This document shows, piece by piece, positions 2,068-64,000 of a DNA stretch of 64,000 nucleotides. The DNA comes from Clostridia bacterium (GTDB lineage Bacteria; Bacillota; Clostridia; Christensenellales; Borkfalkiaceae). The position numbers and the translations under genes are program-made. The stretch is taken from the NCBI GenBank assembly GCA_029055875.1, contig JAIDCJ010000010.1, positions 1 through 64,000 on the forward strand, in the 5' to 3' direction. The notes beneath the pieces were generated by a model, which saw only the letters and a program-made list of their open reading frames with translations, did no database searches and was not told the origin of the DNA. Within the stretch, counting starts at the first letter, position 1. Each line of letters opens with the position of its first letter.

Positions 2068-2088
2068 TTCTTTCCTCCGTCTTGTCAT

Positions 2089-2117: not shown

Positions 2118-2121
2118 ATTA

Positions 2122-2150
2122 TTGACATACAAATTTTATTCGATTATAAT
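2122..2150 (+). promoter_or_regulatory. Promoter of the dehydrogenase-cysK operon
   Basis: A consensus TTGACA (2122-2127), a 17-base spacer and TATAAT (2145-2150). The expected transcription start is about 2156-2158, so the mRNA would begin within a few bases of the ATG at 2160 and carry no ribosome binding site. Confidence 0.88.
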
Positions 2151-2159
2151 AATGTCATT

Positions 2160-2927
2160 ATGGAAAAAGTTGCGGTAATTACGGGCGCGACGAGCGGAAT
2201 CGGTTTGGCTACGGCGCGGCTCTTTTTGAAAAAGGGATACAAGGTTTACGGCATTGCCAGAAAGCCCTTCGAGGGGGAATTTTTCTGCTATTCCGCGGAC
2301 GTGACCGACTACACGGCAATCGAAAAAATCTTTGAAGAGATTCACGAAAAGGAAGGGCACATTGACGTCCTTGTGAACAACGCGGGGTTCGGCATTGCGG
2401 GTGCCATAGAAGAGGCTTCGCCCGAACGCATTGCGCAAATCGTGGAAGTCAACCTCACCGCGCTGTGCGTGCTGTGCAGCAAAATCGTGCCGTACCTCAA
2501 AGAAACGCGCGGGCGCATTATCAACATTTCCTCGGTGGGGGGCATTATGCCGCTGCCCTATCAGGCAATGTATTCGGCAACCAAGGCGGGCGTCGAGGTC
2601 TTTTCGCGAGCCTTAGCAAACGAGTTAAAGCCCTACCGTGTCCGCGTGACGGCAATTCTCCCCGGCGATACCAAGACGGGTTTCACCTCTGCCCGCGTGT
2701 GCGAGGGCGAGAACGAGACGGCGAAGAAATCGGTTGCGAAAATGGCACGCGACGAACAGCACGGCAAGCCGCCCGAAAGCGTTGCAAAGCTCGTGTACCG
2801 TGCGGCGAAACAAAAGCACCCGCCCCTTCGGAAAACGGTCGGGTTCGTATCCAAAGCGGAAATCTTTTTATCAAGACTTCTGCCCGTGAGATTTGTAAAC
2901 TTTCTTATCAGAAAAATATACGGCTAA
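2160..2927 (+). CDS. Short-chain dehydrogenase/reductase (SDR)
   Basis: A classical SDR of 255 residues. It has the NAD(P)-binding motif TGATSGIG (8-15), NNAG (73-76), catalytic Ser125, Tyr138 and Lys142 (YSATK), and the C-terminal basic stretch FVNFLIRKIYG. The substrate cannot be read from sequence. Its divergent neighbour makes beta-ketoamine products, so reduction of such a ketone is an attractive but unproven role, as in sphingoid base synthesis, where a 3-ketosphinganine reductase of this superfamily follows serine palmitoyltransferase. Translation probably starts on a nearly leaderless transcript, since no Shine-Dalgarno sequence precedes the ATG. Cysteine synthase follows after 25 bases without a terminator. 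Confidence 0.9.
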   Translation: MEKVAVITGATSGIGLATARLFLKKGYKVYGIARKPFEGEFFCYSADVTDYTAIEKIFEEIHEKEGHIDVLVNNAGFGIAGAIEEASPERIAQIVEVNLTALCVLCSKIVPYLKETRGRIINISSVGGIMPLPYQAMYSATKAGVEVFSRALANELKPYRVRVTAILPGDTKTGFTSARVCEGENETAKKSVAKMARDEQHGKPPESVAKLVYRAAKQKHPPLRKTVGFVSKAEIFLSRLLPVRFVNFLIRKIYG

Positions 2928-2952
2928 AAAGCTCCGCGCATATACTGCAAGT

Positions 2953-3873
2953 ATGGCAGTATATGAAAGCATAACGGACGGTATCGGAAACACCCCGCTG
3001 TTGAAGCTTAGCAGGTATGCAAAGAAGCACGCCTTACAGGCAAGCATTTATGCGAAGCTCGAAGCCCTAAACCCTGCGGGTTCGGTGAAGGACAGAGTTG
3101 CGCGGGCAATGATCGAGGACGCGGAAAAATCGGGCAGGCTCGAAAAGCATTCCGTGATTATAGAGCCGACCTCGGGCAATACGGGCATCGGGCTGGCGGC
3201 GGTGGCGAGCGCAAAGGGGTATCGCGTGATACTCACCATGCCCGAAACGATGAGCGCGGAACGCAGGAAACTTTTGAAAGCATACGGTGCGGAAATCGTG
3301 CTCACCAAGGGCGGGATGCAGGGCGCAATCGATAAGGCGCACGAGCTTGCGAAAAAAACGAAAAACGCGTTTATTGCGGGGCAGTTTGAAAATCCCATAA
3401 ATCCCAAGACACATTTTGAGACGACAGGCCCCGAAATCTGGAAGGATATGCAGGGCAAGGTGGATATCTTTATTGCGTGCGTGGGTACGGGCGGTACGCT
3501 GACGGGCGTCGGCAAATTCTTAAAAGAGCAAAACCCGAACGTGAAAGTGGTTGCGGTGGAACCTGCGGGCTCGCCCGTGCTTTCGGGCGGCAGGGCAGGG
3601 CCGCATAAGATTCAGGGAATCGGCGCGGGGTTCGTGCCGGGCGTGTTAGATACCTCCGTGTACGACGAGGTGCTCACCGTGTCCGACGAAGCGGCAGAAG
3701 AGGCGGGCAGGGAAATCGGCAGGACGGAGGGCGTGCTTGTCGGCATTTCCTCGGGCGCGGCACTCGCCGCCGCTACGGTGCTTGCAAAGCGCAAAGAGAA
3801 CGCGGGCAAGAATATGGTGGTTATCTTCCCCGATTCGGGAGATCGGTATCTTTCCACCGAAACGTTTTCTTAA
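2953..3873 (+). CDS. cysK: Cysteine synthase (O-acetylserine sulfhydrylase)
   Basis: A PLP-dependent fold-type II enzyme of 306 residues that makes L-cysteine from O-acetylserine and sulfide in the cytoplasm. The PLP lysine is Lys46 in NPAGSVKDR, the substrate loop TSGNTG lies at 74-79, the phosphate-binding loop GTGGT at 179-183, and the C-terminal PDSGDRYLST at 293-302 is typical of CysK. The length is normal. It lies 25 bases behind the SDR gene, with only a weak ribosome binding site, so it is likely read from the same promoter. A strong terminator follows directly. No T-box leader or CymR-like site was recognised. Confidence 0.95.
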   Translation: MAVYESITDGIGNTPLLKLSRYAKKHALQASIYAKLEALNPAGSVKDRVARAMIEDAEKSGRLEKHSVIIEPTSGNTGIGLAAVASAKGYRVILTMPETMSAERRKLLKAYGAEIVLTKGGMQGAIDKAHELAKKTKNAFIAGQFENPINPKTHFETTGPEIWKDMQGKVDIFIACVGTGGTLTGVGKFLKEQNPNVKVVAVEPAGSPVLSGGRAGPHKIQGIGAGFVPGVLDTSVYDEVLTVSDEAAEEAGREIGRTEGVLVGISSGAALAAATVLAKRKENAGKNMVVIFPDSGDRYLSTETFS

Positions 3874-49500: not shown

Positions 49501-50919
49501 ATGTCAAATGCAAGCAAAGGAAATTTATTCGAGTTATTGAATACCGATGATTCTATAAAAGTGACAAAGGCGAACAGGTCGATTGAGGAGGCGATTATTC
49601 CCGATGGAGTGACTGTAATAGGCAAACGCGCATTTGCGATGTGTAAAAATTTAAAGCGTGTTGTTTTCCCTGCCACCGTTTCTGTTATAGAAAAAGAAGC
49701 ATTCCGTTTTTGTAGTGGGCTTCGCAGCGTTGTTTGCGAAAATGGCGCGGCAGTTAAAATTATGGATTTTGCTTTTGCGAGTTGTTCTAGCCTTGAAGAA
49801 ATAGACCTGATTAAAGTTAATGAAATTGGCAACTATGCTTTTTCGGGGTGTGCCAAGTTGCGGGGAGTAAACCTTTCCCAAAGCTTAGAAAAGATAAGTG
49901 ACGGTACATTCTACGGATGTGAGTCCATGGAATCGATTGCTTTTCCCGATTCTTTAAAGCAAATAGGTGAGTATGCTTTTTATAACTGCAAATGTCTTGT
50001 AGACTTAACGTTGCCGAGCGAATTGAATGAAGTCGGCACGAATGCGTTTCAATGCTGTTCGGCACTTAAAAAGATTAATATAAATGATATTTATCTTTGG
50101 TACGGAATCAGATTTAAAAATTATAATGCCAACCCTCTTTCTCTTGGCTGTGCACTGTTTGTCGGTGATGAACGGATTTGCGAATTGAAAATACCGAACG
50201 GTATCACTGAAATACTGCCGTATTCTTTTGCCGGATATAAAAATCTTCGTTCGGTGATTATGGGGGACGATGTTGTTTCAATCGGCGAGGAAGCGTTTTG
50301 CGGCTCGTCGTTAAACCGCATTGTTTTTTCAAAGAGGTTGATGTCATTGGGTGTGGGGGCATTCTGCCGTTGCGCGTCGCTGGAAAATGCGGAGCTTCCA
50401 GCAGGCGTAGTTGCGCTGCCTGAGCGGAGCTTTGCGTACTGCTCCAAACTGGAGAGTGTTGTCTTGTCCGAGGGCGTTCGGGAGATTTCAAAACACGCAT
50501 TCAGTTACTGCCCAGTTTTGAAAAAATTGAGCAGCATGGACGGATTAGTGCACTTTTGTTTTTCAAGTATTGAAGGATGCCACGCGCTGGAGACGCTTTC
50601 TTTTTCGGATAAGTTAAAACTACTCGACAATAAAGAACTGTCACACTGTTCCGTTAAATTTATCAATTATTCGGGAACCAAAGAAAATTGGACGAAATTA
50701 CGAAAAGGCATCTGTGATTATTATGATATTGATGCCGCGACCTATTATAAATTTATGGACATACCGCATGCGTCAATCATCGTTCATTGCAGTGACGGAG
50801 AGATTACCGAAAAATATTATTCACGGGAAGATGTCGAGGATGAGTACGAAGGAGATTGGGGGCATTATGTGGCGCCATGGCTGCCCGATCCAATTAAAAA
50901 AATGTGGAGCAAAGAGTAA
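49501..50919 (+). CDS. BspA-like leucine-rich repeat protein without signal peptide
   Basis: A 472-residue protein with about fifteen LRR_5/BspA-type repeats (IPDGVTVIGKRAFAMCKNLKR pattern) from residue 30 to about 390. A C-terminal part with INYSGTKENWTKL and IIVHCSDGEI, both common at the end of BspA-type proteins, is followed by an acidic tail. Unlike most members it has no signal peptide and no anchor, so it should stay in the cytoplasm unless exported by another route. It is the first gene after the composition shift and may be element cargo. TTGAGGA stands before the ATG. Its function is unknown; LRR proteins usually bind proteins. Confidence 0.88.
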   Translation: MSNASKGNLFELLNTDDSIKVTKANRSIEEAIIPDGVTVIGKRAFAMCKNLKRVVFPATVSVIEKEAFRFCSGLRSVVCENGAAVKIMDFAFASCSSLEEIDLIKVNEIGNYAFSGCAKLRGVNLSQSLEKISDGTFYGCESMESIAFPDSLKQIGEYAFYNCKCLVDLTLPSELNEVGTNAFQCCSALKKININDIYLWYGIRFKNYNANPLSLGCALFVGDERICELKIPNGITEILPYSFAGYKNLRSVIMGDDVVSIGEEAFCGSSLNRIVFSKRLMSLGVGAFCRCASLENAELPAGVVALPERSFAYCSKLESVVLSEGVREISKHAFSYCPVLKKLSSMDGLVHFCFSSIEGCHALETLSFSDKLKLLDNKELSHCSVKFINYSGTKENWTKLRKGICDYYDIDAATYYKFMDIPHASIIVHCSDGEITEKYYSREDVEDEYEGDWGHYVAPWLPDPIKKMWSKE

Positions 50920-50997
50920 GGAACGATAAGAAATATTAAAATTCACATTATTACGACTGAGTCGTTCTATGCGATGTCATTAATAAACCGCGTACTA

Positions 50998-51026
50998 TTG
51001 ACTGAGAGAGATTTAAATGATATAAT
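50998..51026 (+). promoter_or_regulatory. Promoter of the eight-gene operon
   Basis: TTGACT (50998-51003), a 17-base spacer and TATAAT (51021-51026), followed by AAAGGAGAAAA before the ATG at 51063. Confidence 0.85.
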
Positions 51027-51062
51027 ACATATTGAATTGTATACATAAAGGAGAAAATAAAA

Positions 51063-51749
51063 ATGGCAAAATTTACAGCGTCACAGGTAGCAGAAACAAT
51101 AGTAAAGTACTGCATTGAAAACGGAATAAAAATCATATATATTTCGGGTAACGGTGGTAGCGGCAAAACGACATTAAGCAAATTAATACAGCAAAGCGTG
51201 AACCCGTACGGCACTTGTAACGCAATTGAAATGGACGATTTCGTCGTTGACACAAAACTGCGTAACAGTGCAAATGCTGCTTGGATTGATGTTGATACTG
51301 GAGAGGAGAGAAATGGTAAGTATACGACTTCATTTGAAGCGTCGTATTTTCTTCAAAACATCAAGGCAATACTTTGCAATCTTATACGAGGGAACAACTA
51401 TTGGCATTGGCCCAAGAAAGGGAAGGTTCTCGAAGATTCCGCAGTCGAATATAAAGCAGACGCATTATTAACCGTTGTAGAAGGTATCAGTAGCGTGTTT
51501 TTACCTAAATTTGCGCCGACGCTGACTATTTTTATGGAGTGTTCTAAGGACGTGGAAATAGCAAGGCGCGTGCAAAGAGCTCGCTCCGAAAATGAAAAAG
51601 ATCTGGCAGCGGCAGAAAAGAGTTATGAGGTTCGTAACAGTCAATTTAAGGCTAATATTCTTCCGCATGCGAGTGAATTTGATATTGAATTGCATAGTGA
51701 CGAAGATTACGGGCTGGTAGTCAAAAAAGATACGATGAAAGTATTATGA
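51063..51749 (+). CDS. Uridine kinase-like P-loop kinase
   Basis: A 228-residue cytoplasmic P-loop protein of the uridine kinase/phosphoribulokinase type. Walker A is GNGGSGKTT (29-37). The substrate Asp pair IEMDDF follows near 55-60, then VVEGISSVF near 140-148 in place of the uridine kinase DEGIF-type strand, and RRVQRARSENEKD near 167-179 as lid. The length fits. The phosphate acceptor may be a nucleoside, sugar or pantothenate-like compound and cannot be told from sequence. It is the first gene of the operon; the next gene overlaps it by four bases (ATGA). Confidence 0.82.
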   Translation: MAKFTASQVAETIVKYCIENGIKIIYISGNGGSGKTTLSKLIQQSVNPYGTCNAIEMDDFVVDTKLRNSANAAWIDVDTGEERNGKYTTSFEASYFLQNIKAILCNLIRGNNYWHWPKKGKVLEDSAVEYKADALLTVVEGISSVFLPKFAPTLTIFMECSKDVEIARRVQRARSENEKDLAAAEKSYEVRNSQFKANILPHASEFDIELHSDEDYGLVVKKDTMKVL

Positions 51750-52420
51750 CGCATAAAGAGTTGTTGATATTTGATCTCGACGATACTCTTTTTGATTACG
51801 TTCAGACAGAGATCTTTGCGATAAAAGCAGCGTGTCTGGCACAAGATATCCCGTTTGATGAAAATACATATAAGGTATATAAGCGAGCCAATAATTTGGC
51901 AAAAAAGGAATTACCTTCGTATATTATGAATTTACCGCAATTCCGTATGCTGCGCGCCGATAAGTTTTTTGAACTTATGTCGTTAAATAGTAAGGATAAG
52001 GACAGGTTTATCGCTGATTATATGAATGCGTCACAAACGGGTGTATTGTTCGACGATGTGGAAGATGTATTAAGGCAACTCAATAAATTTCGAAAGGTAA
52101 TAGGGACGAATGGTTCCACTTTTCCGCGCTACCAAAAGTTGATAAATTCAAGCATACGCGATTGTTTCGACGGATTCTATTCTTCCGAAATGCTTGATGT
52201 AAGTAAGCCCGATAATCGTTTTTATGAGGCGATAATACAAAAGGAGACCGTTAGCAAAGAGCGGGTGCTCGTTATCGGGGATAATTTAGAAACAGATATA
52301 TACGGGGCAATTAACGCCGGCATAGAATGCTGTCTTATTGATAGAAAAGGTAAATATGATAATGTCGCTGATGCTATCGTTATTCATGAGTTCGGACAGC
52401 TCGCGAATATTCTGAAATAA
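51746..52420 (+). CDS. HAD superfamily hydrolase (YjjG-like)
   Basis: A 224-residue HAD phosphatase. Motif I is DLDDT (10-14) with the nucleophile Asp10, motif II is GTNGS near 117, and the DxxxD motif VIGDNLETDIYGA lies near 183. The cap is of the helical C1 type, as in YjjG nucleotidases and beta-phosphoglucomutase-like enzymes. It is coupled to the kinase gene by a four-base overlap, so phosphorylation and dephosphorylation steps may belong to one pathway. The substrate is unknown. Confidence 0.88.
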   Translation: MTHKELLIFDLDDTLFDYVQTEIFAIKAACLAQDIPFDENTYKVYKRANNLAKKELPSYIMNLPQFRMLRADKFFELMSLNSKDKDRFIADYMNASQTGVLFDDVEDVLRQLNKFRKVIGTNGSTFPRYQKLINSSIRDCFDGFYSSEMLDVSKPDNRFYEAIIQKETVSKERVLVIGDNLETDIYGAINAGIECCLIDRKGKYDNVADAIVIHEFGQLANILK

Positions 52421-52458
52421 GTCAGGTGTTTATTATATACGAAGGATTACGCATAACT

Positions 52459-53220
52459 ATGTTTAATATAGAACGATATAGAACAATCAGATTTAATAGA
52501 GTGAATTATGATTACGCAGGTAATTTAGAGTATTTGTGTAACAGTATCGTACCTACGGACGATGACTTTCGTGTCGCTAAAGAGATAATGAAAAACGGTT
52601 GTTCTCCTGATGGCTATAAAGGTTTTGCTGAAAGCATTTTAAGGAATACTGTTCAAAAGAAGGGTACGGTGTTTGCAATAGCAGGCAACATAGGTAGCGG
52701 AAAAAGTACGTTTATTCACGCATTGCTTGAAAATAATATGCTTGGCAGTGACGTTATGCCCGTGCTCGAAGACGTGTATAAGACGGTCTTTTTTGATGGT
52801 GTTGACAATATGAAAGTTGCTTACGGCTACGCCAAGTCGTTCGTAAAGAAAAAAATACTTGATTATTGCAGTTCAGGTAAAAATTTTATTTATGAGTTTG
52901 TGCCGTCTAATGATGAAAAAATGGAAATTTTAGACGCGCTTAAAAGTATAGGTTATCGCGTAGTTGTGTTATTCATTATGACTGATGACATAAACATTAA
53001 TGTGAACAGGGTAAAAAACCGCGTGGCGAGTGGCGCGGACTTTGTTTCCGAAGACAAGGTGCGTAGCCGAGAATTCTTGACTAACGGCAATTTGAATAGG
53101 CTTTTGCATTGTAGCGATGAATTTTATCGTTATTATTCAAAGGACGGTTCGTTCATACTGCGCTCGTATAAAGTCGGAGGAGAAGAAATGCTGACGGTAA
53201 GTGAGGAAATGCCTATATGA
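52459..53220 (+). CDS. Zeta-toxin-like P-loop kinase
   Basis: From ATG at 52459 the product has 253 residues. Walker A GNIGSGKST lies at 76-84. The C-terminal half with VLFIMTDDININVNRVKNR and ASGADFVSEDKVRSREF resembles the lid and substrate region of zeta-toxin/UDP-sugar kinase-like proteins. There is no epsilon-type antitoxin gene beside it, and it lies in a biosynthesis-like operon, so a metabolic kinase is more likely than a toxin. The start is uncertain: AAGGA stands twelve bases before this ATG, while a GTG at 52426 in the same frame has no ribosome site. The last four bases overlap the next gene. Confidence 0.7.
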   Translation: MFNIERYRTIRFNRVNYDYAGNLEYLCNSIVPTDDDFRVAKEIMKNGCSPDGYKGFAESILRNTVQKKGTVFAIAGNIGSGKSTFIHALLENNMLGSDVMPVLEDVYKTVFFDGVDNMKVAYGYAKSFVKKKILDYCSSGKNFIYEFVPSNDEKMEILDALKSIGYRVVVLFIMTDDININVNRVKNRVASGADFVSEDKVRSREFLTNGNLNRLLHCSDEFYRYYSKDGSFILRSYKVGGEEMLTVSEEMPI

Positions 53221-53984
53221 AAGGTATCAACTTTGAATACGGATACAAATCTCTTTATTCCGAAAGAGCTTCGATGATTAAGCGCGCTGGGTTTGATTCC
53301 GTGTTGCTCAGTTACGACGAATTTGTTGAAGATGCAATGCTTTCCATTCGGAATGCCGGACTTAATATAGATGCACTACATTTGCCGTACCGTAAGATGG
53401 TAAACAATATTTGGCTGAGTGGCGACGTGTCTGAGCCGTATTTGCAGCTGTTATCAGGTTGCATTGCGTATGCAGATAAAATGGGGATAAGAAGGGTTGT
53501 TGCGCATATTACGAGCACCGATAGCCCGCCACCAAAGAATATCAGGGGCGTAGAATTTATAAACAAACTACTCGCCGTGTGCGAGAAGTATAACGTTTAT
53601 CTCTGTTTGGAGAATTTGCGCAGGCTCGATTATCTGGAATATATTTTTGAAGAATGCGGAAGTCGGCTTCTCGGGTTTTGTTTTGATAGCGGTCATGCTT
53701 CGGCGTTTACCCACAACCCAACTTCGTTTCCTTGGGAAAAGTTCGGTGAAAAACTAACGTGCGTACACTTGCATGATAATAACGGGGTAGACGACGAGCA
53801 CTTGTTGCCGTTCGATGGGTCACTGCCTTGGGAAGTTATTGCACCTAAAATTGGGCACTATTGCAAGACGGGAGCCGTTTCACTTGAACTTCACGACGGT
53901 GCAAGAGCAAGATATAACGGTTCCGAAGAAGAATTTTTAAATATGGCGTATCAACGGATTTCCAAAATTTATAATCTTATGTGA
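53217..53984 (+). CDS. Sugar phosphate isomerase/epimerase-like TIM barrel
   Basis: A 255-residue protein of the xylose isomerase-like TIM barrel (AP endonuclease 2) superfamily. Metal-binding signatures are visible: IDALHLPYR near 51-59, RRVVAHITSTDS near 92-103, YLCLENLRRLDYLEYIF near 122-138, GFCFDSGHASAF near 146-157, and LTCVHLHDNNGVDDEHLLPFDGSLPW near 180-205, with AVSLELHDGAR at the end. Members isomerise or epimerise sugars, inositols or hydroxy acids using divalent metal. It starts within the end of the previous gene (ATGA overlap), so translation is coupled. Confidence 0.87.
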   Translation: MKGINFEYGYKSLYSERASMIKRAGFDSVLLSYDEFVEDAMLSIRNAGLNIDALHLPYRKMVNNIWLSGDVSEPYLQLLSGCIAYADKMGIRRVVAHITSTDSPPPKNIRGVEFINKLLAVCEKYNVYLCLENLRRLDYLEYIFEECGSRLLGFCFDSGHASAFTHNPTSFPWEKFGEKLTCVHLHDNNGVDDEHLLPFDGSLPWEVIAPKIGHYCKTGAVSLELHDGARARYNGSEEEFLNMAYQRISKIYNLM

Positions 53985-53993
53985 GATGGATAA

Positions 53994-55295
53994 ATGAAAA
54001 TAGAAGAATACGAAAGAGATAGTATAGCTGCTTATATAAAGGCTGAACGCTACGTTAATGACGGTTCACCCAGCAGGTTTTCCCAAAATACCACCAAGAT
54101 AGGCGCACCGACGTCTGCAATCGGTGGGTTTGACGTCGTTTTGGCTGAGTTGCCCAAGGATATCTTTTGCCGTGACGTCGGCGACGAGCAATGCGGATTA
54201 CCGAAAGGAACGATGTTAATACATCCCGATATGATGGATAATCCTATTTTGCGTGATGTCGGCATCAAACAATGCGGCAAAGAGTTCGTATATCCGACCG
54301 CGAGCGGAAGAACGGTATTTGACGCTGACGATAAGCGGTTTTATAAACTTGCATATCTGAATTATTTGGGTCGCATAATACGGCACATGGAATATAATCG
54401 TCTCATGTCCGCAAAAGAGGCGACGGATTTGCTGGTGCGTGTTGCGACAGATAACAGAGCGAACAAGAGATTTAGTTTGCTTAAAGAAGATTGCGGTCGT
54501 GTTGCGTTTTTGCCGATAGATCCCAAGACGGTCGACCCTTCCTTAAAAATTCCCCAACAGTGTATTGATTCTGGGCTTTACGAGTGGGGCGTTTTGTTCC
54601 GCGAGTTCAATCCGTATCCTTACGTAAAAGAGAAGGAGTATCTCGTTCCGTTCTTTTCTCTTTTCGGCGGAGAATACAAGCCTGAAACTAACGAGTTTTC
54701 TAAGGATCACGAGATATTTATTTCGCAGATTTTTAAAAAGCAAAGTAAATCGTTAGAGAGATTTTTGCTTGATGAATTGCTGTTTCCTCTCTATAATACA
54801 TATTTTGATTGCTTATTGCTCGGCGGTGTGGAGTTGGAAGCACACGCACAAAATATGCTGGTAACGCTGAATAAGGACTATCAGATTAAACGAATCGTAT
54901 GTCGCGATCTTGAATCGGCGGGCAGGGATATGGATTTGATAAAGTATCTGAATATAGATTATGCGACGACCATCACAGATTATAAGTGTAATTACAGAAA
55001 GCCCAAAGACCCTGATCAGAAATACGATAAGTATACTATTACGCATAGTTTTATGTTTGATTTTAAGTTGGGTGAATATATAGTTACGCCGATGTTGGAG
55101 AAGTTGAAGCAAATATACCCCAGTATGAATATTGCGCAAATAACAGAGGAGTTAAAGGACTTCAACAGACAGTTTATTAAGCTGTTGCCACTGGGATTTT
55201 TCCCTCCCGATTGGTGCCACTATGAAAATATCAATTTCGAAGAAACAGGCAAACCTCGCGTATACATTTGGCAGGATAATCCCAAATACAGATAA
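53994..55295 (+). CDS. IucA/IucC-like (NIS) synthetase
   Basis: A 433-residue protein that shows the landmarks of the NRPS-independent siderophore (IucA/IucC) synthetases: LIHPDM at 75-80 in place of the usual HPWQ region, PTASGRTVF at 101-109, a helix with YKLAYLNYLGRIIR, and the core GGVELEAHAQNMLV (278-290) followed by RDLESAG (304-310). Full-length NIS enzymes have about 580-620 residues, so this one is compact; the ferric reductase-like C-terminal FhuF domain is missing. NIS enzymes join a carboxylate such as citrate to an amine or alcohol with ATP. The actual substrates are unknown and the relationship is remote. Confidence 0.68.
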   Translation: MKIEEYERDSIAAYIKAERYVNDGSPSRFSQNTTKIGAPTSAIGGFDVVLAELPKDIFCRDVGDEQCGLPKGTMLIHPDMMDNPILRDVGIKQCGKEFVYPTASGRTVFDADDKRFYKLAYLNYLGRIIRHMEYNRLMSAKEATDLLVRVATDNRANKRFSLLKEDCGRVAFLPIDPKTVDPSLKIPQQCIDSGLYEWGVLFREFNPYPYVKEKEYLVPFFSLFGGEYKPETNEFSKDHEIFISQIFKKQSKSLERFLLDELLFPLYNTYFDCLLLGGVELEAHAQNMLVTLNKDYQIKRIVCRDLESAGRDMDLIKYLNIDYATTITDYKCNYRKPKDPDQKYDKYTITHSFMFDFKLGEYIVTPMLEKLKQIYPSMNIAQITEELKDFNRQFIKLLPLGFFPPDWCHYENINFEETGKPRVYIWQDNPKYR

Positions 55296-55313
55296 ATTAT
55301 TTTAGGAGTGATT

Positions 55314-56279
55314 ATGAACAAATCGCAATTTGACACAATCGTTAACGAATATCTTATCCGTACGGATAAGGACGGTAACAGACTTAAAATGGATAGCATT
55401 ATAATTTCAGATTCCGACGGTAATTATTTTAAGCATTGTTTCTCGGGTAATGACGGGCTACACGCAGTAAGGTCGGTATGCAAATCGGTCGTATCTATGT
55501 GTCTTGGAATCGTTATGAGTGATAAGGATCATCGTTATACCGATACTGAACTGACTTTTGATACGAAAGTCTGGCCTATTATTAAGGACAAGGTCAATCT
55601 TACAAATGTGGATAATCTTGCACGACTTGAAAAGTTGACGATGTTTAACCTGTTTACGCATAGTATAGGATTTAATGTTAAGTTGTTAAAGAGTAAAGAC
55701 GTAAAAGGCATAGATCCTACGACGTATCTTGACCTTGTTTGTAATACGCCGCTTGTGTACGAACCTGGCGAATCTTTCCTTTATTCCAACGCCGCGCCGT
55801 TTTTGCTTGCCGTTGTATTTCAGGAGATAACGGGTATCAATCTGGCGGATTTTGCTAACGAGCACATATTCAAAAAAATCGGTATCAACTCGTATGCTTG
55901 GCGTAATTACGGCAAGTATTGCGCAGGTTCGACGGGACTTGAATTGCAAAGTGATGACCTCCATAAAATAGCGCAATTAATTGCTAATGACGGGAAATAC
56001 AACGGACGGCAAATTATTCCTGCCGAATGGATAATTAAGATGCGTACGCCGCAGGTACTCACTCCGTCTATGTATGACGAACAGAGGGTTTTCCCCAAGT
56101 ATGCTTACGGATTATTGATGTGGGTATGCGGTAACGAGGTGGACAGCAACTATTTTATTGATGGCAGCAACGGACAATATATAATAATAATTCCGAAGAA
56201 AAAGCTGGTTATTACCACTTTGGCCGATCAATCGGATATGAAACCGATAACTGTGTGCCTGCGCAGTTTGATTTCATGA
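55314..56279 (+). CDS. Serine beta-lactamase-fold (class C/DD-peptidase-like) protein, cytoplasmic
   Basis: A 321-residue protein of the beta-lactamase/penicillin-binding protein family. The nucleophile motif is Ser54-Val-Cys-Lys57, the second motif Tyr157-Ser-Asn159, and a DGSNGQ stretch near 280 stands where KTG or HTG would be. There is no signal peptide or transmembrane helix, unlike true beta-lactamases and cell-wall enzymes. It may therefore be a cytoplasmic esterase, acyltransferase or amidase acting in the pathway. AGGAG precedes the ATG at 55314; a GTG two codons earlier is possible. The next gene starts ten bases behind its stop. Confidence 0.87.
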   Translation: MNKSQFDTIVNEYLIRTDKDGNRLKMDSIIISDSDGNYFKHCFSGNDGLHAVRSVCKSVVSMCLGIVMSDKDHRYTDTELTFDTKVWPIIKDKVNLTNVDNLARLEKLTMFNLFTHSIGFNVKLLKSKDVKGIDPTTYLDLVCNTPLVYEPGESFLYSNAAPFLLAVVFQEITGINLADFANEHIFKKIGINSYAWRNYGKYCAGSTGLELQSDDLHKIAQLIANDGKYNGRQIIPAEWIIKMRTPQVLTPSMYDEQRVFPKYAYGLLMWVCGNEVDSNYFIDGSNGQYIIIIPKKKLVITTLADQSDMKPITVCLRSLIS

Positions 56280-56289
56280 GGTAAAAGTT

Positions 56290-59001
56290 ATGGTGGATAA
56301 CAGCTATATAGAAATATATTTCAGAATTGCCGTGATTCTTAACGAGTCCGGCTTATTAAGGAACAATTACAGTAATATTATTCCAAACTTAGATATGCTC
56401 ATGAATTCGGCGAACGACGCCGGAAGTAAGATCAGAAAGCGATATCTTTTTACTGGATTTACCCGTTCGAATTTGTCGGATATGTTCAATGTGGAAAACG
56501 ACAATTACATAAATAACTTTGATGCATTGTTTATATCCACAAACGCAACCAACGATAATGAAGTAAAATCGAAACTTACCGCAAATACCGAAGTATTGGC
56601 TGAGTTTTTAAATTCGGGTAGGGGTTTGTTCATCGGCTCGCAGAAGAAGCTGAGTGACAAGCCCGACACGATTTCGTTTTTGCCCGACACGATTTCATAC
56701 AGCTACGTCAAGCGTCCGGAGATTAAATCGTCAGAGGGCGAGATAAGTATAGTAAACGAAAAATCTCCGATAGTGGCGGGTTGTGACGGCAATGAGATAA
56801 CGAACAAATGTCACAATAACAAATTTAAAGACCACGTTTACAGATCCTGGCTGCAACTCAATTATTCCGAGCTGTTTGAACCGATATTGGTTGATAAAAA
56901 AGAAAACAGTCGCGTTTTGCTCGTTCGCGCGAAAAATCAAAAGATAGTTTATACTACTATTTCCGCAGATTACGAAGAGCAGAATGAGCTTCTACATAAC
57001 ATTATAATTTATATAACTGAGGGTATATCTTCAATAGGCTTTTTCGGCAATGTAAATAATATGCATTTCGAGGCCTCTAAGTTTAGCGATCTTTTTTTGA
57101 GTGCTAAAATCAACAAAATGACTTTTGATATTTATGGTTCGCTTGATATTACTCCTGATGTTTTAAGCAAAAAAATATACGTAATATCACCTGAATTCGA
57201 TTTTGAGGAAGTCAAAGAGTTTTGGCGGGGTTTGCTCAGCAAGAGTAAAGATCTTAAAAAGATTCTATATATACACGACAGTAATAAGTGCGATAATGCA
57301 ATAACCGAATACAGAAATTACAGCAATACGGATTTACGGTTACAGCAGGTCATACAATGGGTTGAAAAAACTCTCGATAAAAAGACTCGAGATAAGGAAG
57401 AAAAAAGCCGTCGCGAAGAAGAGGAAAAGAAAAAACGCGAGAGCGTTTCAGCCACCGATGCGGCGAGAGAACATGGCTCGAAGAAAGCTCCTCGTACCGT
57501 CGTTCATTGGGGTGCCGATTTTTGGACGACTTATGATACTATGACCTTCTTTTACGAGCTATCGCAGACTTATGGTGAGCAGTATGCCGACATAATTGCG
57601 AGCTATGCGCCGTCAGTCCTTGATTCGTGGGAATCTCATTACCGTTTACCAGATAAAAACGATAGCGCAAGCAGCGATAACGACGAAATCGGCAGCTATG
57701 ACGGTATGTTGAATTGCTCGTGTGCTATGCTTGAAATGTTTTATCTGTTTCATCTTGACGAGTTAAAGGCAAACGGAAAATTTAAAGGCAGATCGTTTCA
57801 AAAGTATCGTACGGAAAGCACGCTGGAATATATCAAGCAATGTCTCAATAAGGTTGCGGGCGCAAGCTATTTGCTCGATATGGAATCCTCGATAATTTCA
57901 TTTTATAATCTAAAACGAATTGCGGGAGATGATCCTATCGTCAAAACGCTGTTCGAGCCTGAAAAAGATGGGACAAGTTATGTACAAAAATTGCTTAAAA
58001 AAGTAGTTAAGGATAGGATACTCGAAAAGTTTAAGGGTGTTATTCATAAACCTGCAAACAGTGGGCAAGTCAGTAAGTATTATGCGCATCAAACGGATAC
58101 GCAGGAACTTTGTAAAGATATTGAAATTATTGGCCTTGCCCTTTCCGATGAGGACAACATTTTCGAGAGTGACGAGCAGTTGGATGCTATAAAACGCTGT
58201 CTGTTCCATCATATCGTGCAGCTTAAATCAAAGCAGGTTAATGGGTGTTGGATAAATCTCAATCGTACTGCGGCAATTTTTAAATCGCTTATTCGTGCGA
58301 AGTATTTGTACGACGATATAGAAACAGAATGCTCGTTTGAGCTTAACAGCGTATTGTCGCAGCTTATAGGCGTAACGCTCAACTATATTAACAAGACTGT
58401 GAGTGGTCAAGATAAAAAATTCGATCGCAGTAGCGCCTGGATGAGCGATCTGATGGCAACCGTTACCACCGCATATTCTCTTTGCGTATACAACCGTTCG
58501 AATAAGAGCCTTGCGTACGAAATAGAGCATTCGATATTAAATAGCGTTGACAGCATTATCGGCGCCGCCTCGGTAGAGATGGCGGCAATAGAAATGACGC
58601 GAATGAGAAACCGAATAACTGATATTTTGCAGGAGAAAAGTGCTTGTGAACGCGAGCTCGAAACCTTGAAGAGCAATTATAAAAAAGAGGAAGCGGACAA
58701 TAAATACCGCCATTTAAAATTACGGAATACTATGGTATTGGCTATCGTGTTTTTGTTCGTCATAGCCGTAGAACAGTTTATAGTTATTGCGCAATACGGT
58801 ATGTTCAACAAATTCTTGACTTGGTTGTTCTCTCTCTTAGGAACTATTGTCGCGTTTGGCGTGTCAATTCTACTTAAAAACCTGATAGAAAAGAAGATGT
58901 TTATGACTGATGACGATTTAAAAGAAGCCAGCATGAAAAAACAAGCCCGTAAAGAAAAAAAACAGGAGAAAAAGCGCAAAAAAGCGGAGAAGAGTGAGTA
59001 A
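56290..59001 (+). CDS. Large membrane protein with GATase-like N-terminus; unrecognised
   Basis: A 903-residue protein I do not recognise as a whole. Residues about 1-245 have the pattern of a class I glutamine amidotransferase-like (ThuA/DUF4350-type) domain without a catalytic Cys-His pair that I can assign (FDALFISTNA, LAEFLNSGRGLFIGS). A charged coiled coil lies near 355-395. The region about 405-790 is helical with Trp/Gly-containing turns (GCWINLNRTAAIFKSLI, SSAWMSDLMATVTTAYSLC), which could be an alpha/alpha toroid. A second coiled coil (about 775-812), two hydrophobic helices (about 816-838 and 843-863) and a very basic tail (KKQARKEKKQEKKRKKAEK) follow. The bulk should lie in the cytoplasm, anchored near its C-terminus. 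Confidence 0.72.
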   Translation: MVDNSYIEIYFRIAVILNESGLLRNNYSNIIPNLDMLMNSANDAGSKIRKRYLFTGFTRSNLSDMFNVENDNYINNFDALFISTNATNDNEVKSKLTANTEVLAEFLNSGRGLFIGSQKKLSDKPDTISFLPDTISYSYVKRPEIKSSEGEISIVNEKSPIVAGCDGNEITNKCHNNKFKDHVYRSWLQLNYSELFEPILVDKKENSRVLLVRAKNQKIVYTTISADYEEQNELLHNIIIYITEGISSIGFFGNVNNMHFEASKFSDLFLSAKINKMTFDIYGSLDITPDVLSKKIYVISPEFDFEEVKEFWRGLLSKSKDLKKILYIHDSNKCDNAITEYRNYSNTDLRLQQVIQWVEKTLDKKTRDKEEKSRREEEEKKKRESVSATDAAREHGSKKAPRTVVHWGADFWTTYDTMTFFYELSQTYGEQYADIIASYAPSVLDSWESHYRLPDKNDSASSDNDEIGSYDGMLNCSCAMLEMFYLFHLDELKANGKFKGRSFQKYRTESTLEYIKQCLNKVAGASYLLDMESSIISFYNLKRIAGDDPIVKTLFEPEKDGTSYVQKLLKKVVKDRILEKFKGVIHKPANSGQVSKYYAHQTDTQELCKDIEIIGLALSDEDNIFESDEQLDAIKRCLFHHIVQLKSKQVNGCWINLNRTAAIFKSLIRAKYLYDDIETECSFELNSVLSQLIGVTLNYINKTVSGQDKKFDRSSAWMSDLMATVTTAYSLCVYNRSNKSLAYEIEHSILNSVDSIIGAASVEMAAIEMTRMRNRITDILQEKSACERELETLKSNYKKEEADNKYRHLKLRNTMVLAIVFLFVIAVEQFIVIAQYGMFNKFLTWLFSLLGTIVAFGVSILLKNLIEKKMFMTDDDLKEASMKKQARKEKKQEKKRKKAEKSE

Positions 59002-59015
59002 CGTAACGCATTATT

Positions 59016-59606
59016 ATGTTTATATATCTTGTAAGACATGGAGAAACCGAATCAATCCGTAGGTCTGGCTGGGGCGATAATCGTTTGACACCTTATGGTT
59101 GTCAACAAGCCTATAATTTACGCGAATTAGTATTGAATAGGAAAAATGAGCTTGATATAGGAAAAATTTATTCAAGCGATTTGCAGCGTTCAATTGAAAC
59201 CGCATTACCGACAGCAGAAGCTCTGCATCTAAATATTACACGTTGTCCTGACTTCCGTGCTCCCGATAATGGAGTTTTGGCTAATATGCCGTCTGAAGAA
59301 GCAGATATTAAATTTCCAGGCTTGCATTATTACAGCTTGGATTTTGATCAAAAATATCCTGGTGGAGAAAGCCCGCATGAATTTTATGACAGAGTAATCG
59401 TCGCCTGGAAAAAATTTGTAAAGATGGTTTTACCAGATCGCCAAAATGCAATTTTGTTTTCGCACAGTAGCGTTATTAGAGTCGTGTATTGTTTTGTTGA
59501 AAATCTCCCATATAATAATAAAGATAATGGCAAAATACCGGAGGCGGAGCTATTAGCTATAGATTTATTTGATGAAGATAATTTAAGATGTTTATTTAAA
59601 TTATGA
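59016..59606 (+). CDS. Histidine phosphatase (phosphoglycerate mutase-like)
   Basis: A 196-residue histidine phosphatase. The catalytic RHGE motif is at 7-10 (LVRHGET), Arg in SSDLQRSIETA near 53-63 and the second His in LFSHSSVIR near 148-156 are present. Members remove phosphate from sugars, nucleotides, lipids or proteins. It is the last gene of the operon, 14 bases behind the large membrane protein gene, with a poor ribosome site. Together with the HAD enzyme it gives the operon two phosphatases against two kinases. No strong terminator follows; a 7-bp hairpin at 59628-59647 lacks a T tract. Confidence 0.88.
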   Translation: MFIYLVRHGETESIRRSGWGDNRLTPYGCQQAYNLRELVLNRKNELDIGKIYSSDLQRSIETALPTAEALHLNITRCPDFRAPDNGVLANMPSEEADIKFPGLHYYSLDFDQKYPGGESPHEFYDRVIVAWKKFVKMVLPDRQNAILFSHSSVIRVVYCFVENLPYNNKDNGKIPEAELLAIDLFDEDNLRCLFKL

Positions 59607-59741
59607 CCATTGTTCTAAGTAATCTGTAATAGAATTATTGTTCTATTGGATGAGTTTCGATTGCAGATTAGTGTTTTTCATAGTAAGACAATGGGGATAC
59701 GCCTTTTTGTATATTGGTCGTTCCCTGTATTCTTTTTTCGA

Positions 59742-59747
59742 TATAAT
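59742..59747 (+). promoter_or_regulatory. Possible -10 element of the degenerate element gene
   Basis: TATAAT six bases before the ATG at 59753. No convincing -35 box lies at the right distance, so this is weak. If real, the transcript would be leaderless. Confidence 0.3.
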
Positions 59748-59752
59748 ACCTT

Positions 59753-62305
59753 ATGCAAAACGGTTATCGAATAATTTCCGTTGAGACAGCGGATATATAT
59801 AAGAACGAACAAGAAGACGGCGTTGCTGTCAGGTACAAGTTGCCCGACGTGAAGAGCGACGCCCATTTTTGGTTGTTTAAAAACAAATTAGATTATTCGT
59901 TAGATAGTATTGAGCTTGAAAAAGCGTACACTCGAATTTGCCGCAAAAAGTTCTCCTTTGTGGATGAACATAATAATCACTATACTATTGCCGTTATCAA
60001 TGTGAAGTTTAATTTTACATATAAGATGGAGGGCGGTAGGTCCCTAAAAGTCAAACAACTGCGAGAATACTTTTATGCCAACGGTTTTAATGTGAGCGGT
60101 ATTCACTACGTTAGATATAAACGCAGCGCTGGAAGTTCACTCGAAGGCACTTGTTTATTCATAGACGAGCGGTTATAAAGTACATGACAAAATGGAGCGA
60201 GTGTGGACTGAAACCGAAGAACGATCTTGCCTCGTGGGAATCGTATCGAGCGTTATCGCTAAGCAGCATAAAAGGCACGATTAAAATACCGCTTGACGGA
60301 ATTCTATTTGTTCCGGATTATAAAAGCACGTTTACTGACGAAGTTGTTTCCGTAGAAATGCAAGACGGTAAATTGACTGCTTAAACTAAACAAACTCAAA
60401 TCACCAATGACATTTGGGACGGAGAAAGTCTTTTAGATGCAAGCTTGTTTGTAGGTGAATATGCGGATAAGCATATGCTACTTCTGCGCAACAAGTTTTT
60501 CAAGTCGTGCGCATTTAAGACGAAACTGCAAAAATGGATTAAAGACAAAAGCATTACGCTTGATGACTTGAAAGCTCGCGGCTTTATTACGCTTGCGAAA
60601 GATATAAGCCAAATCGTAATGGTAACAACGCCCAATAGCTTGAAATATCTCAAATTTGCTGGTGCATTGAACGACAAGAATATTCGTCAATGGACAGAAA
60701 ACGTAAACAGTACCTTGGGCGTAGTCAAATGGGATAAACGTACAAAGTATTTCGGCGGTAAATTAGTTCAAAGCAGTTATCAATTTTTGAACACGCTTGG
60801 GCTTACCGAACAAGAGGTCAACGAATTATTACAGTCGAGCTTTAAATATATTTCCTATGTTCGCAAAGATATAGACTTTATGCGTTTCCACTTCGCCGTC
60901 GCTTATGTAAAAGAAAGCGACGGCGAAGTGGAAACGCCGGATGGTCTTGCTGACCGCGCCGACGTAATTTTCAAACTTCTATATGACAGCCCGTTTTTCG
61001 ATCAGACGGCACTATATTCCAATTTCAAAAATGACGTTGTAAGCAGTTTGAAAGAAAAATTATGGAAAGGACATATTCTTTTGAATGGCACAAACGCTAC
61101 ATTGTTCGGTAACGGTGCGGAGCTATTAAAATATGTTGCTGGAGAAGAAGTAACAAGCGAACTAAAGAACGGTCAAATTCGTTGTGAAAGATTTGAGAAT
61201 GGTGCAAAGTTGCTCTGCGCTCGCTCACCGCATATAACTATGGCTAATCTTTATCTTGTGGAAAACAAGCTCGGCAGCAAATATGGGATTACTTTGATTT
61301 AGGCGATAACATTGTTTGCGTAAACGCTATCAATGAAAATATACAGCAACGCCTGAACGGTTGCGATTACGATTTCGATACAATGCTTATAACGGATGAC
61401 AAGTTATTGGTAGAGTCTGCGGAGAAAAACAACAGCCTTTTCAAAGTTCCCGTTTGCAGTATAATGTCGGGCGGGAATGCGAGCAATGCTCTTTCCGAGC
61501 TCGACCACAAGACAAGCGAAAACAAAATCGGTGAAATTGTTAATCTGTCGCAAAAACTTAACAGCCTTATTTGGGACAAGCTCAATAGCGGCGCAAGCAC
61601 GACAGATATACTTCCTATTTATAAGGACGTTTGTAAACTCGCCGTTCTTTCGGGATTGGAAATAGATAAAGCAAAACGCGCCTATGACAATGTAAACGTC
61701 GGCGCAGAACTTACGGCTCTGCGCAAGAAATACAATGCTCCTGCGCCAATATTCTTTCAAGAGATAGATGAAGCATATAGAAACGGAGAGAAGCAATACA
61801 CCTTTTATAACACAACGATGGATTATATCTATAAGGCTGTAAAGTTGTTCCACTTCCGCAAAGGTAAAGCGAAAGTTAAAGACTATGAGCCTATCTCGCG
61901 AATATTCGGCAATAAAACGACTTCGGACAATGCAACCAATTATCGTCACCGCGACAAAATTATAGAAATCTGCGACGAATATAAGGCACGACTAAGCAAG
62001 TTATATATGGCGCTTCGCTCGGCAGACGAAAAAGAACGCGAAGTTATATACGAAAGAATACAGGATGAAAAAGTCGAAAGAGACCATAAGGTTTCGAGGT
62101 GGCTTACGAGCATAAACGTGATGCTTTTTGTAATACGGCATTATGAGAAGAACAGTCCGTCAGATTGGCGCATTTATGCGCCACTTATAAACACGCCGCT
62201 GTTTCAAAAAGAAATGCTTGCTTACCCAGTGCCGGAGTTTTTATCGTAGAAGATCCCGACGGAGAGTATTGTTTGTACGGCAGAAATTTTACAAAAACAA
62301 TGTAA
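59753..62305 (+). pseudogene. Decayed large mobile-element protein with DxDxD motif
   Basis: Pieces in three frames join into one protein of about 850 residues. The first piece (59753-60178) contains YVRYKRSAGSSLEG and CLFIDERL; a one-base deletion near 60177 moves the frame. The second piece is cut by an in-frame TAA at 60382-60384 and continues with TNDIWDGESLLDASLFVGEY up to 61302, including RSPHITMANLYLVE. A second one-base deletion near 61286 leads to DYFDLGDNIVCVNAINEN and NGCDYDFDTMLITDD. A third deletion in a T run near 62240 leads to EDPDGEYCLYGRNF and the stop at 62303. I recall homologues as uncharacterised proteins of clostridial integrative elements. The D-x-D-x-D motif resembles two-barrel RNA polymerase active sites, which is only a suggestion. 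Confidence 0.75.
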
Positions 62306-62637
62306 AAAGTGAAAGAGCCTAAAAGGTCAATAAGTTTTGTGTGAGGCATTATCAAACCCAATCGGGCTTAAACTACTATTTTCGACACTATTTTGTGACA
62401 AAAACTGCTTAATGAAAGCACCATAATAAAATTAAGTAATCGGCGTAATAGGACGCGCACGAACAGAGCGCGAACATAGCTCGACTGTGGACAACAGTCG
62501 GGCTTTTTATATTGCTGGACAAAGCATGTATCAAATACATTTTCAAGGAGGAAAAAGCAAACAAAAAAAACAAGGCGTAGCTGTCAGCCTCAAAAACGAC
62601 GGTAACGGTATATTTAATATTAGGGGTGATAACTGAG
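62306..62637. other. Intergenic stretch of the mobile element
   Basis: About 330 bases without a supportable gene. It contains short near-repeats (GCGCACGAACA and GCGCGAACA, near 62453-62475) and a terminator at 62478-62508. A short in-frame stretch ending KNDGNGIFNIRGDN (stop near 62635) lies behind AGGAGG but has no ATG. Confidence 0.55.
62478..62508 (+). terminator. Rho-independent terminator
   Basis: A 10-bp stem with one G-U pair (62478-62487 with 62495-62504), a seven-base loop and five T. It lies about 170 bases behind the decayed gene. Confidence 0.85.
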
Positions 62638-62720
62638 CCTGTCGGTAATAGCGAGGAACGTATTTGGCTTGCCAAATACCGCCGACAGGTCGGCGTCCTC
62701 GTTAGGGAGTACCCTAAGAC
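62638..62720 (+). other. Nested inverted repeats, candidate oriT
   Basis: CCTGTCGG (62638-62645) pairs with CCGACAGG (62682-62689), and inside GTATTTGGC (62660-62668) pairs with GCCAAATAC (62671-62679). A third repeat TTAGGG/CCCTAA stands near 62702-62717. The block lies just before mobC, the usual place of a transfer origin in mobilizable elements. Regulation of mobC is an alternative. Confidence 0.5.
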
Positions 62721-62748
62721 CCCGATAAAACGGAATGAACAAGGAGGA

Positions 62749-63084
62749 ATGATTATAGGTAACAGAACAAGACCGTTCGCTTATACATTCAGAGCGACGG
62801 ATAATGAAAGACAAATCATTGATGAGAAAATCAAGCAAAGCGGACTTACAATGACCGAGTTTGTAATAAGAGCGATTAAGGACAATCCTATCACTGTTGT
62901 CGAAAATGTCGGTGAAATTTTGACCGAACTAAAACGGCAAGACAATAATCTGAATCAGGCGGTGCGCAATTACTACTGCGACAACAATACAAGAGCGGAG
63001 CTATTATCTTGTGTGCAAGCATTAAGGCAAACATACAAAAGCATAGTTGTCGCTATGGGCGGAATGAGCAATGCCGCTACTTAA
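62749..63084 (+). CDS. MobC-like mobilization (relaxosome) protein
   Basis: A protein of 111 residues if read from ATG at 62749. The pattern RPFAYTFRATDNERQIIDEKIKQSGLTMTEFVIRAIKDNP is that of MobC ribbon-helix-helix accessory proteins, and LKRQDNNLNQAVRNYY matches the conserved NNLNQ motif. It would bind oriT and help the relaxase, whose gene is not in the window. The AAGGAGG site is only one base from this ATG. A five-codon reading frame (ATG at 62734) ends in TGA overlapping it, so translational coupling may be used; an upstream in-frame ATG at 62626 would place the inverted repeats inside the coding region. Confidence 0.8.
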   Translation: MIIGNRTRPFAYTFRATDNERQIIDEKIKQSGLTMTEFVIRAIKDNPITVVENVGEILTELKRQDNNLNQAVRNYYCDNNTRAELLSCVQALRQTYKSIVVAMGGMSNAAT

Positions 63085-63318: not shown

Positions 63319-63668
63319 ATGATGAGAGAACATAGTAGTTATATGGAGAAAGAACATTATATCCGTTCGGCAAAGAGAACATTGTATGCCGTAGCGCAAA
63401 CAATAATTCAAGGTGAAATAATCAGCAAAGAAGTGATTACGTAAAGAAGAAATTAAGTGCATATACAGGCAGCCCCAAGTCTTTAGTTAATTCAGAGAAT
63501 ATCGCAGACGATACGATATTGTGCGATATGCAAACGGGTGAAGTCAAATCGGGAACGCTACATTACAGCGATGAGTTTATAGTAAGCTGTGCACAAAGCC
63601 TTGCCTACTATCTACTTGACAATCCCGATATCGTAAAACAAATGGAGAATGATTATGGACTCAAATGA
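63319..63668 (+). pseudogene. Broken small element gene
   Basis: A good GGAGG (63301-63305) precedes ATG at 63319, which opens MMREHSSYMEKEHYIRSAK and ends at TAA (63442-63444) after 41 codons. From about 63432 the next frame continues as SDYVKKKLSAYTGSPKSL to a stop at 63666-63668 that overlaps the recombinase start. A single A lost from a run near 63430 explains the break, giving an ancestral protein of about 115 residues. I do not recognise its function. The overlap with the recombinase gene suggests it once was translated together with it. Confidence 0.55.
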
Positions 63669-64000
63669 AAATAGAACAGTAATTTATGCTCGGTATAGTT
63701 GCGAAAAGCAAACCGAGCAAAGCATTGAGGGACAGCTTCGTGTATGTCACGAATTTGCTAAGCGCAACGGTTATATCATCGTGCATGAGTATATTGACAG
63801 AGCGGTTTTGGGAAAAACTGACAAGCGCGAACAGTTTCAGCAAATGTTAAAAGACAGCGCGAAGCAGGAATTTAATTATGTGCTTGTGTATAAGCTCGAC
63901 AGGTTTGCTCGAAATAGATATGATAGTGCAATCAATAAAGCGACGCTCAAAAAGAACGGCGTAAAGGTATTGTCGGCTTGCGAACAGATTACAGATTCGC
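63655..64000 (+). CDS. Serine recombinase (resolvase/invertase family), N-terminal part
   Basis: The first 115 codons are present and the gene runs off the right edge. The resolvase catalytic domain is clear: VIYARYSCEKQTEQSIEGQLR (residues 9-29, with the serine in ARYS), GYIIVHEYIDRAVLGKTDKREQF and VLVYKLDRFARNRYDSA. This is the pattern of large serine recombinases that integrate and excise clostridial mobile elements, although the large C-terminal domain lies outside the window. No upstream GGAGG is seen close to the ATG; AATGGAG precedes it by a few bases. Confidence 0.88.
   Translation, partial: MDSNENRTVIYARYSCEKQTEQSIEGQLRVCHEFAKRNGYIIVHEYIDRAVLGKTDKREQFQQMLKDSAKQEFNYVLVYKLDRFARNRYDSAINKATLKKNGVKVLSACEQITDS

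Follow-up and report, generated by a model that had tools for sequence, protein, structure and literature searches.

The 64,000-nucleotide stretch of DNA analyzed here (hereafter the window; contig JAIDCJ010000010.1 of assembly GCA_029055875.1) comes from a Clostridia bacterium of the family Borkfalkiaceae and carries, at 51063-59606 on the + strand, an operon of 8 genes, g1 to g8. All 8 open reading frames (ORFs) are open, as had been claimed in a preliminary description of this DNA. Protein families were assigned by Pfam and NCBIfam profile scans against the curated cut-offs (E, expectation value), and the operon comprises the following features:

50998..51026, + strand: promoter-like site TTGACT-17-TATAAT, its second hexamer preceded by TG (score 11/12)
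51063..51749, + strand: g1, P-loop kinase of the phosphoribulokinase/uridine-kinase type, 228 residues (PF00485, E 5.4e-10)
51746..52420, + strand: g2, HAD phosphatase, 224 residues (PF00702, E 6.8e-19)
52426..53220, + strand: g3, zeta-toxin-type P-loop kinase, 264 residues (PF06414, E 2.9e-9)
53217..53984, + strand: g4, xylose-isomerase-like TIM barrel, 255 residues (PF01261, AP_endonuc_2, E 8.1e-19)
53994..55295, + strand: g5, short IucA/IucC-type synthetase of the nonribosomal peptide synthetase-independent siderophore (NIS) superfamily, 433 residues (PF04183, 26.5 bits, cut-off 25, E 5.8e-6)
55308..56279, + strand: g6, serine enzyme with a beta-lactamase fold (either a hydrolase or an acyl transferase), 323 residues (PF00144, E 6.6e-15)
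56290..59001, + strand: g7, 903-residue protein with 2 hydrophobic stretches near the C-terminus (hydropathy peaks 809-827 and 843-861)
59016..59606, + strand: g8, histidine phosphatase, 196 residues (PF00300, E 1.1e-29; RHG motif)

Two gene pairs, g1/g2 and g3/g4, overlap by 4 bases, as described previously, whereas the remaining intergenic gaps (5, 9, 12, 10, and 14 bases) are tighter than the approximately 40 bases claimed. The start codon is GTG in g3 and g6. The promoter-like site ends 36 bases short of g1 and has the highest score among the 30 matches found on both strands of the 50800-60400 region; since this number of matches is the same as in shuffled sequences (29.0, standard deviation 5.2), only the score and the position of the site count, and on these it is a good promoter-like site. 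The operon genes have a G+C content of 36-43%, compared to 48.6% for the whole window, in agreement with the earlier view of the segment as A+T-rich.

Judging from their sequences, g1 to g6 and g8 carry the motifs expected of working enzymes, and the active-site motifs of g1 to g6 are conserved, either exactly or in similar form, among the aligned relatives described below. The kinase g1 has the P-loop GNGGSGKT and is 39-59% identical to its counterparts in 6 other gene cassettes; g2 is YjjG-like but falls under the cut-off of the corresponding model (TIGR02254, 112.4 bits, cut-off 159.9), with the DxD motif kept in the 6 relatives; g3 has approximately 75 extra N-terminal residues and the P-loop GNIGSGKS; and g4 is 39-42% identical to the 6 relatives, with the E, D, and H of LEN, FDSGH, and HLHD kept. 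Among the matches listed, none of the 8 proteins attained an NCBIfam equivalog cut-off, although 2 general HAD subfamily models were reached. The 903-residue g7 has no Pfam match over the cut-off (best 7tm_7, 21.7 bits, cut-off 26.6).

IucA/IucC and AcsD are NIS synthetases of siderophore pathways. Besides the PF04183 match, g5 shares with this superfamily the motifs SxRT and HxQN (SGRT at 104 and HAQN at 284), which are invariant in 8 aligned rows, and it matches the profile of 5 longer NIS-like proteins of 578-616 residues with an hhalign probability of 98.2% (E 2.9e-14, 195 columns). Unlike these proteins, g5 sits among kinases and phosphatases and has neither the full NIS length (433 residues versus near 600) nor an FhuF-like C-terminus (19.3 bits, cut-off 25.2). 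The histidine of HAQN and a following arginine probably correspond to AcsD H444 and R305. A paper on AcsD describes R305 as crucial for adenylate formation and names H444 as earlier mutated (PMC3323832).

The serine enzyme g6 displays SVCK at 56 and YSN at 159 (SxxK and YxN motifs), both kept in the 6 relatives. Its nearest solved chain is named 6-aminohexanoate-dimer hydrolase (E 1e-14) and its top NCBIfam match is the 3-succinylated cholic acid synthase (102.6 bits, cut-off 800, E 1.8e-29); the fold and the SxxK/YxN motifs are shared with both, whereas the length of 323 residues and the location in this operon set g6 apart. It may cleave a bond or make one.

A scan of the genome_contigs collection, with 1 genome for each of 84,980 species and the C-terminal part of g5 as the query, yielded 13 loci with a g5 relative. 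At 6 of the 13 (L013-L018), blastp identified the same 6 enzymes in the fixed order g3-g1-g2-g4-g5-g6. These cassettes span 2 phyla, with L013, L014, and L015 originating from metagenome-assembled genomes of Clostridia, and L016, L017, and L018 from the Bacteroidota Carboxylicivirga, Tannerella, and Saprospiraceae, respectively. The TIM barrel and the ligase form a single ORF in L014 and L015. In all 6 genomes, a membrane protein of approximately 510-620 residues with 2 N-terminal hydrophobic stretches is encoded before g3. In L016 and L018 this order bridges a contig break: g3 of L016 is split, its end lying with the cassette and its start after the membrane protein on L075, and the membrane protein of L018 begins on a second contig, L076; judging by this split gene, L018 and L076 are presumably neighboring contigs. 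No further ORF of at least 70 residues is present inside the 6 cassettes. Pairwise distances of the 6 cassette proteins correlate (r 0.72-0.94), and genomes G531-G540 have 1 ligase each, that of G539 being in 2 pieces.

The cassette is almost certainly a real conserved module. Co-occurrence of the same enzymes, their fixed order in 6 other genomes, and the TIM barrel-ligase fusion bear out the earlier proposal that the genes form one functional unit. The proposal that the unit comprises 8 genes holds for the 6 recurring enzymes but not for the whole set, because the membrane protein varies and g8 is not part of the 6 related cassettes. The recurring unit is thus 6 enzymes and 1 membrane protein that can differ.

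The operon of the window is itself a variant of this arrangement. Its g3 is the third gene, whereas g3 is the first enzyme of the 6 other cassettes; the operon lacks their membrane protein, and g6 is followed by g7 and g8. A relative of g7 is encoded by the first gene of a locus from Ruminococcus flavefaciens (L022; 697 aligned positions with 27% identity, E 3.6e-41), where relatives of g6 and then g5 come after it; g7 and this relative both end in 2 hydrophobic stretches. The genome studied here holds a second, decayed relative of the operon on another contig (C4; L005, 850-5840). It encodes a kinase of the APH type and a membrane protein that is fused to a HAD domain, along with a truncated relative of g6 and a ligase interrupted by an in-frame stop; the membrane portion of the fusion is a member of the membrane-protein family of the 6 cassettes (E 2.6e-12). 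The arrangements of L005, L022, and the window indicate that the membrane protein can differ while the ligase and the serine enzyme stay together. After the decayed copy, an ORF of 600 residues (L005, 6528-8330) has 2 N-terminal hydrophobic stretches and no Pfam match.

More distant loci show the same components with further changes. In L019, the ligase is fused to an HD-CE domain (PF24391, E 1.9e-20); an ORF of L021, where the ligase lies in 2 frames, starts like this fusion, as judged by eye; and the L020 locus runs off its contig. L038 encodes a histidine phosphatase, a ligase, an S66 peptidase, and a membrane protein. The Nocardiopsis locus (L023) encodes a cytidylyltransferase whose PfkB match falls just short of the cut-off, a two-helix protein, 2 ligases, a protein that matches 2'-5' RNA ligase below the cut-off, a histidine phosphatase, and an S66 peptidase. 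The histidine phosphatases, of the type represented by g8, adjoin the ligases of L038 and L023. Across these loci, the combination of ligase, phosphatase, serine enzyme, and membrane protein thus recurs, though its parts change.

The operon had been described as residing on a mobile element, and genes for mobilization and recombination are indeed located just downstream:

62626..63084, + strand: NikA-like mobilization protein of the carrying element (PF21983, E 1.5e-15)
63649..64000, + strand: serine recombinase, running past the window end to 65253 (PF00239, E 5e-29 for the full gene in L042)

A Mob_Pre relaxase is encoded further downstream, past the window end, and the same family is found after the L014 cassette; recombinase or Mob genes are present near the window, L014, and L021 and, by eye, also near L022. 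Between the operon and the NikA-like gene, the region 59753-62249 holds a row of ORF fragments, those scanned matching no family over the cut-off, which are perhaps the remains of one larger gene. Among 60 other genomes of the genus, a search for an empty site based on the upstream gene found no close match, the best listed identity being 53%.

The module family is rare and crosses phyla. IucA/IucC was detected in 1 of 391 genomes of the host class and g7 in 1 of 101 genomes, in both cases only in the genome studied here. Of 295 genomes from the order to which L017 belongs, the g5 family profile matched 2, the seed included, and a wider g5 profile matched 1 of 245 and 1 of 246 genomes in 2 other orders, each being the seed. 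In a rough concatenated tree of only 7 tips, the window, L017, and L018 are split from the rest with a support of 0.974, and the rest mixes phyla. On these sequence comparisons, the module has likely moved between phyla.

Searches of plasmids identified distant ligases in 3 Methylocystis records and no relative of g7, the second L023 ligase, the L019 fusion, or the cassette membrane protein. In 2 of the Methylocystis plasmids (L007 and L008), short NIS ligases adjoin genes for chromate efflux, DUF1259, and major facilitator superfamily proteins, a further kind of setting for this enzyme. The phage scan gave no g7 relative and a single g5 record, apparently a stretch of a Staphylococcus genome. 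This record (L010; OR844989.1), named Staphylococcus phage, has 3 NIS-like ORFs and iron transport genes by eye and looks like a stretch of bacterial chromosome. A match in G068 (E 8.9e-4) was set aside, as no NIS-like gene was seen by eye among its ORFs; a further match was obtained in G274 (2.6e-4). The PDB holds no convincing relative of g5, g7, or the cassette membrane protein. In PADLOC-DB 2.0.0, no family matched g2, g4, g5, g7, or g8 at E 0.1, and the matches of the other proteins are weak (g1 and g3, best 9.9e-5, to VakA; g6, to Cas6 at 0.031). Among the literature matches listed, no paper ties NIS-type ligases to phage defense or conflict systems, a weak absence given that the search did not cover bioRxiv as such or most subscription papers. 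Neither source contradicts the earlier statement that no system with this gene set has been described.

Some relatives of the operon have defense genes as immediate neighbors. In L017, AbiEi (4.9e-48) and AbiEii (1.6e-88) lie approximately 50 bases upstream of the membrane protein; in L022, GajA (2.3e-256) and GajB (5e-217) of the Gabija system lie approximately 90 bases downstream of the ligase; and in L018/L076, an Argonaute (1.3e-232) lies approximately 115 bases upstream of the membrane protein, with a type I restriction enzyme also present, provided that the 2 contigs are indeed neighbors. At these 3 loci, the defense genes (AbiE, Gabija, and Argonaute) are on the same strand as the module. 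The vicinity of L015 includes DruD, DruE, and DruB (Druantia) and PDC-S01, and that of L014 includes Hhe/PDC-S37 and PDC-S31. Upstream of the L013 cassette (971-3574), an 867-residue NB-ARC protein has no PADLOC match. The operon itself lies beside a defense island, located downstream of the window at approximately 65.3-76.9 kb of the contig (C2; L042, 65261-76897) and containing an Avs2-like gene (1.4e-64), GmrSD, PDC-S73, and recombinases.

The preliminary description had read the enzymes as a small-molecule pathway, and the enzyme families and their intact motifs agree with this. Of the 2 possibilities raised for such a product, a natural product or a defense module, we favor the latter, because defense genes stand directly beside relatives of the operon and no exporter is recognized in it; the control described below is not clean, and this preference falls short of proof. 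A defense role of the module seems to us somewhat the better bet. With the chances close to balanced, we tentatively regard the operon as belonging to a conflict module that has not been described before and that spreads horizontally; the module would most likely act against phages, and its ligated product would act in the cell.

The recurring gene set and order, the fusion, the intact motifs, the mobile setting, and the defense neighbors are the observations on which the following scheme is built; every reaction in it, their order, the link between ligand and effector, and the trigger are what we infer. The kinases and the isomerase-like barrel beside a ligase suggest that a phosphorylated, rearranged block is joined to a carboxylate. 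The 2 kinases g1 and g3 and the TIM barrel g4 would prepare the building block, the HAD phosphatase g2 would take off a phosphate, and g5 would activate a carboxylate with adenosine triphosphate (ATP) and join it to the building block as an amide or ester. From the constant presence of a serine enzyme, it seems that this bond is cleaved as well, or that a second one is made: g6 and the phosphatase g8 might cleave or reset the product or, alternatively, g6 might be a second acyl-joining enzyme. At 2 looser loci, an S66 peptidase occupies a position like that of g6. Since no exporter is recognized, the conjugate would act within the producing cell, and since a membrane protein is always present yet changeable, that protein could be the effector or sensor. 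A two-helix membrane protein, g7 in this operon and a member of another family in other loci, would sense the conjugate and, on infection, damage the membrane or halt growth. Such a mechanism of signal plus membrane effector is possible but doubtful. The same caution applies to the fuller picture of an immune system in which a carboxylate conjugate, made by a siderophore-type ligase from a building block that the kinases and the isomerase supply, is erased by the serine enzyme and the phosphatases and sensed by interchangeable two-helix membrane effectors; it might be the first defense pathway based on NIS chemistry. CBASS (cyclic oligonucleotide-based anti-phage signaling system), Pycsar, and Thoeris, whose separate effectors often carry membrane helices, resemble the operon in combining an enzyme set with a two-helix membrane protein, in having defense neighbors, and in being mobile. 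Unlike in those systems, no cyclase, TIR domain, or other known signal maker is found among the 8 proteins in the Pfam and PADLOC scans, and the chemistry would be carboxylate ligation.

Several results weigh against a defense module of this kind. Scans of viruses yielded no relative of g5 (alone or as a family), g1, g4, g7, the cassette membrane protein, or the HD-CE fusion, and phages and plasmids yielded only distant NIS proteins. Among the flank proteins read one by one, no defense neighbor was seen for L016 or L019-L021. We compared 84 ORFs of at least 120 residues from the flanks of 10 loci, outside the cassettes and after dropping rows with more than 5 X, with 171 ORFs from 19 control regions of the same 10 genomes (a twentieth region, L057, had no usable ORF); L076, with the Argonaute, and L042, with Avs2, were left out of the 84. 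PADLOC matches over 1e-20 were found for at least 10 of the 84 flank proteins, at 4 or more of the 10 loci. The controls are rich in PADLOC matches too, including, among the matches listed, Cas9, Cas1, Csn2, HEC-01, Dol, SoFic, PDC, and mad3, with 18 of the 20 control regions starting at a contig end, a bias that favors mobile genes. A rough Fisher test (one half; 10 versus an estimated 5 proteins of 84) gave p = 0.28. On a plain reading of this control, the neighborhood alone does not prove defense here; the control does not bear on the direct same-strand adjacency at 3 loci or on the HD-CE fusion. In single gene trees the window is placed differently, with L013 for g1 and g2 and with L017 for g6, and the module may not always move as one block. 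Furthermore, NCBIfam matches g6 best to an enzyme that joins acyl groups, albeit far under the cut-off, which makes an erasing role of g6 uncertain, and 2 helices are only compatible with an effector role of the membrane protein.

Rather than to defense, the operon could belong to a metabolic or repair islet, for instance one that salvages fragments of a cobamide or a phosphorylated sugar or nucleoside, with its defense neighbors stemming only from shared mobile-element hot spots. The presence of defense genes in the control regions fits such an islet, as do the weak likenesses of g4 to CbiR and of g8 to CobC, both far under the cut-off. The module is, however, rare, spread across phyla, and found near recombinases, and the fusion of the L019 ligase to HD-CE and the differing membrane proteins also speak against an islet, which we consider rather unlikely. 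Its cobamide version was rejected on the scores (CbiR, 39.5 of 105 bits; CobC, 74.3 of 162.9 bits).

It is likewise unlikely that the product is a toxic conjugate, an antibiotic or bacteriocin of the microcin C kind directed against competitors, with the serine enzyme or S66 peptidase providing self-immunity. The microcin C immunity protein MccF is an S66 family member, and the pairing of an NIS-like ligase with an S66 peptidase in L038 and L023, together with the patchy, mobile distribution, speaks for such a role. As in microcin C loci, a ligase is combined with a serine enzyme that may cut amides; in the operon, unlike there, a beta-lactamase fold takes the place of S66 and no exporter is recognized. 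The absence of any further ORF from the interior of the 6 cassettes and the membrane proteins with 2 hydrophobic stretches, few for a transporter, also argue against a secreted toxin.

That the operon is a cluster for a siderophore or metallophore, with unusual tailoring enzymes, is improbable: although the ligase belongs to the NIS superfamily and petrobactin-type (asb) clusters also combine NIS enzymes with a TIM barrel of the AP_endonuc_2 type, as L024 appears to do from its ORFs, the operon has one short ligase and no second NIS enzyme, leaves its 2 kinases and 2 phosphatases unexplained, adds a serine enzyme and a membrane protein, and, in the Pfam scan, includes no transporter (export or uptake), receptor, hydroxylase, carrier protein, or adenosine monophosphate (AMP) ligase family among its 8 proteins, for which lack of transport and partner families we rank it low. 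By eye, L024 and L025 look like ordinary siderophore clusters.

If the proposed defense role is true, bacteria would use siderophore-type ligation chemistry for immunity, adding a new class of signal or toxin to the defenses based on nucleotides and on nicotinamide adenine dinucleotide (NAD). The compact enzyme set, with intact motifs and representatives in 6 further genomes, makes the product and its role directly testable. Even if the module does not serve defense, a 7-gene pathway that crosses phyla is a concrete target for metabolite discovery.

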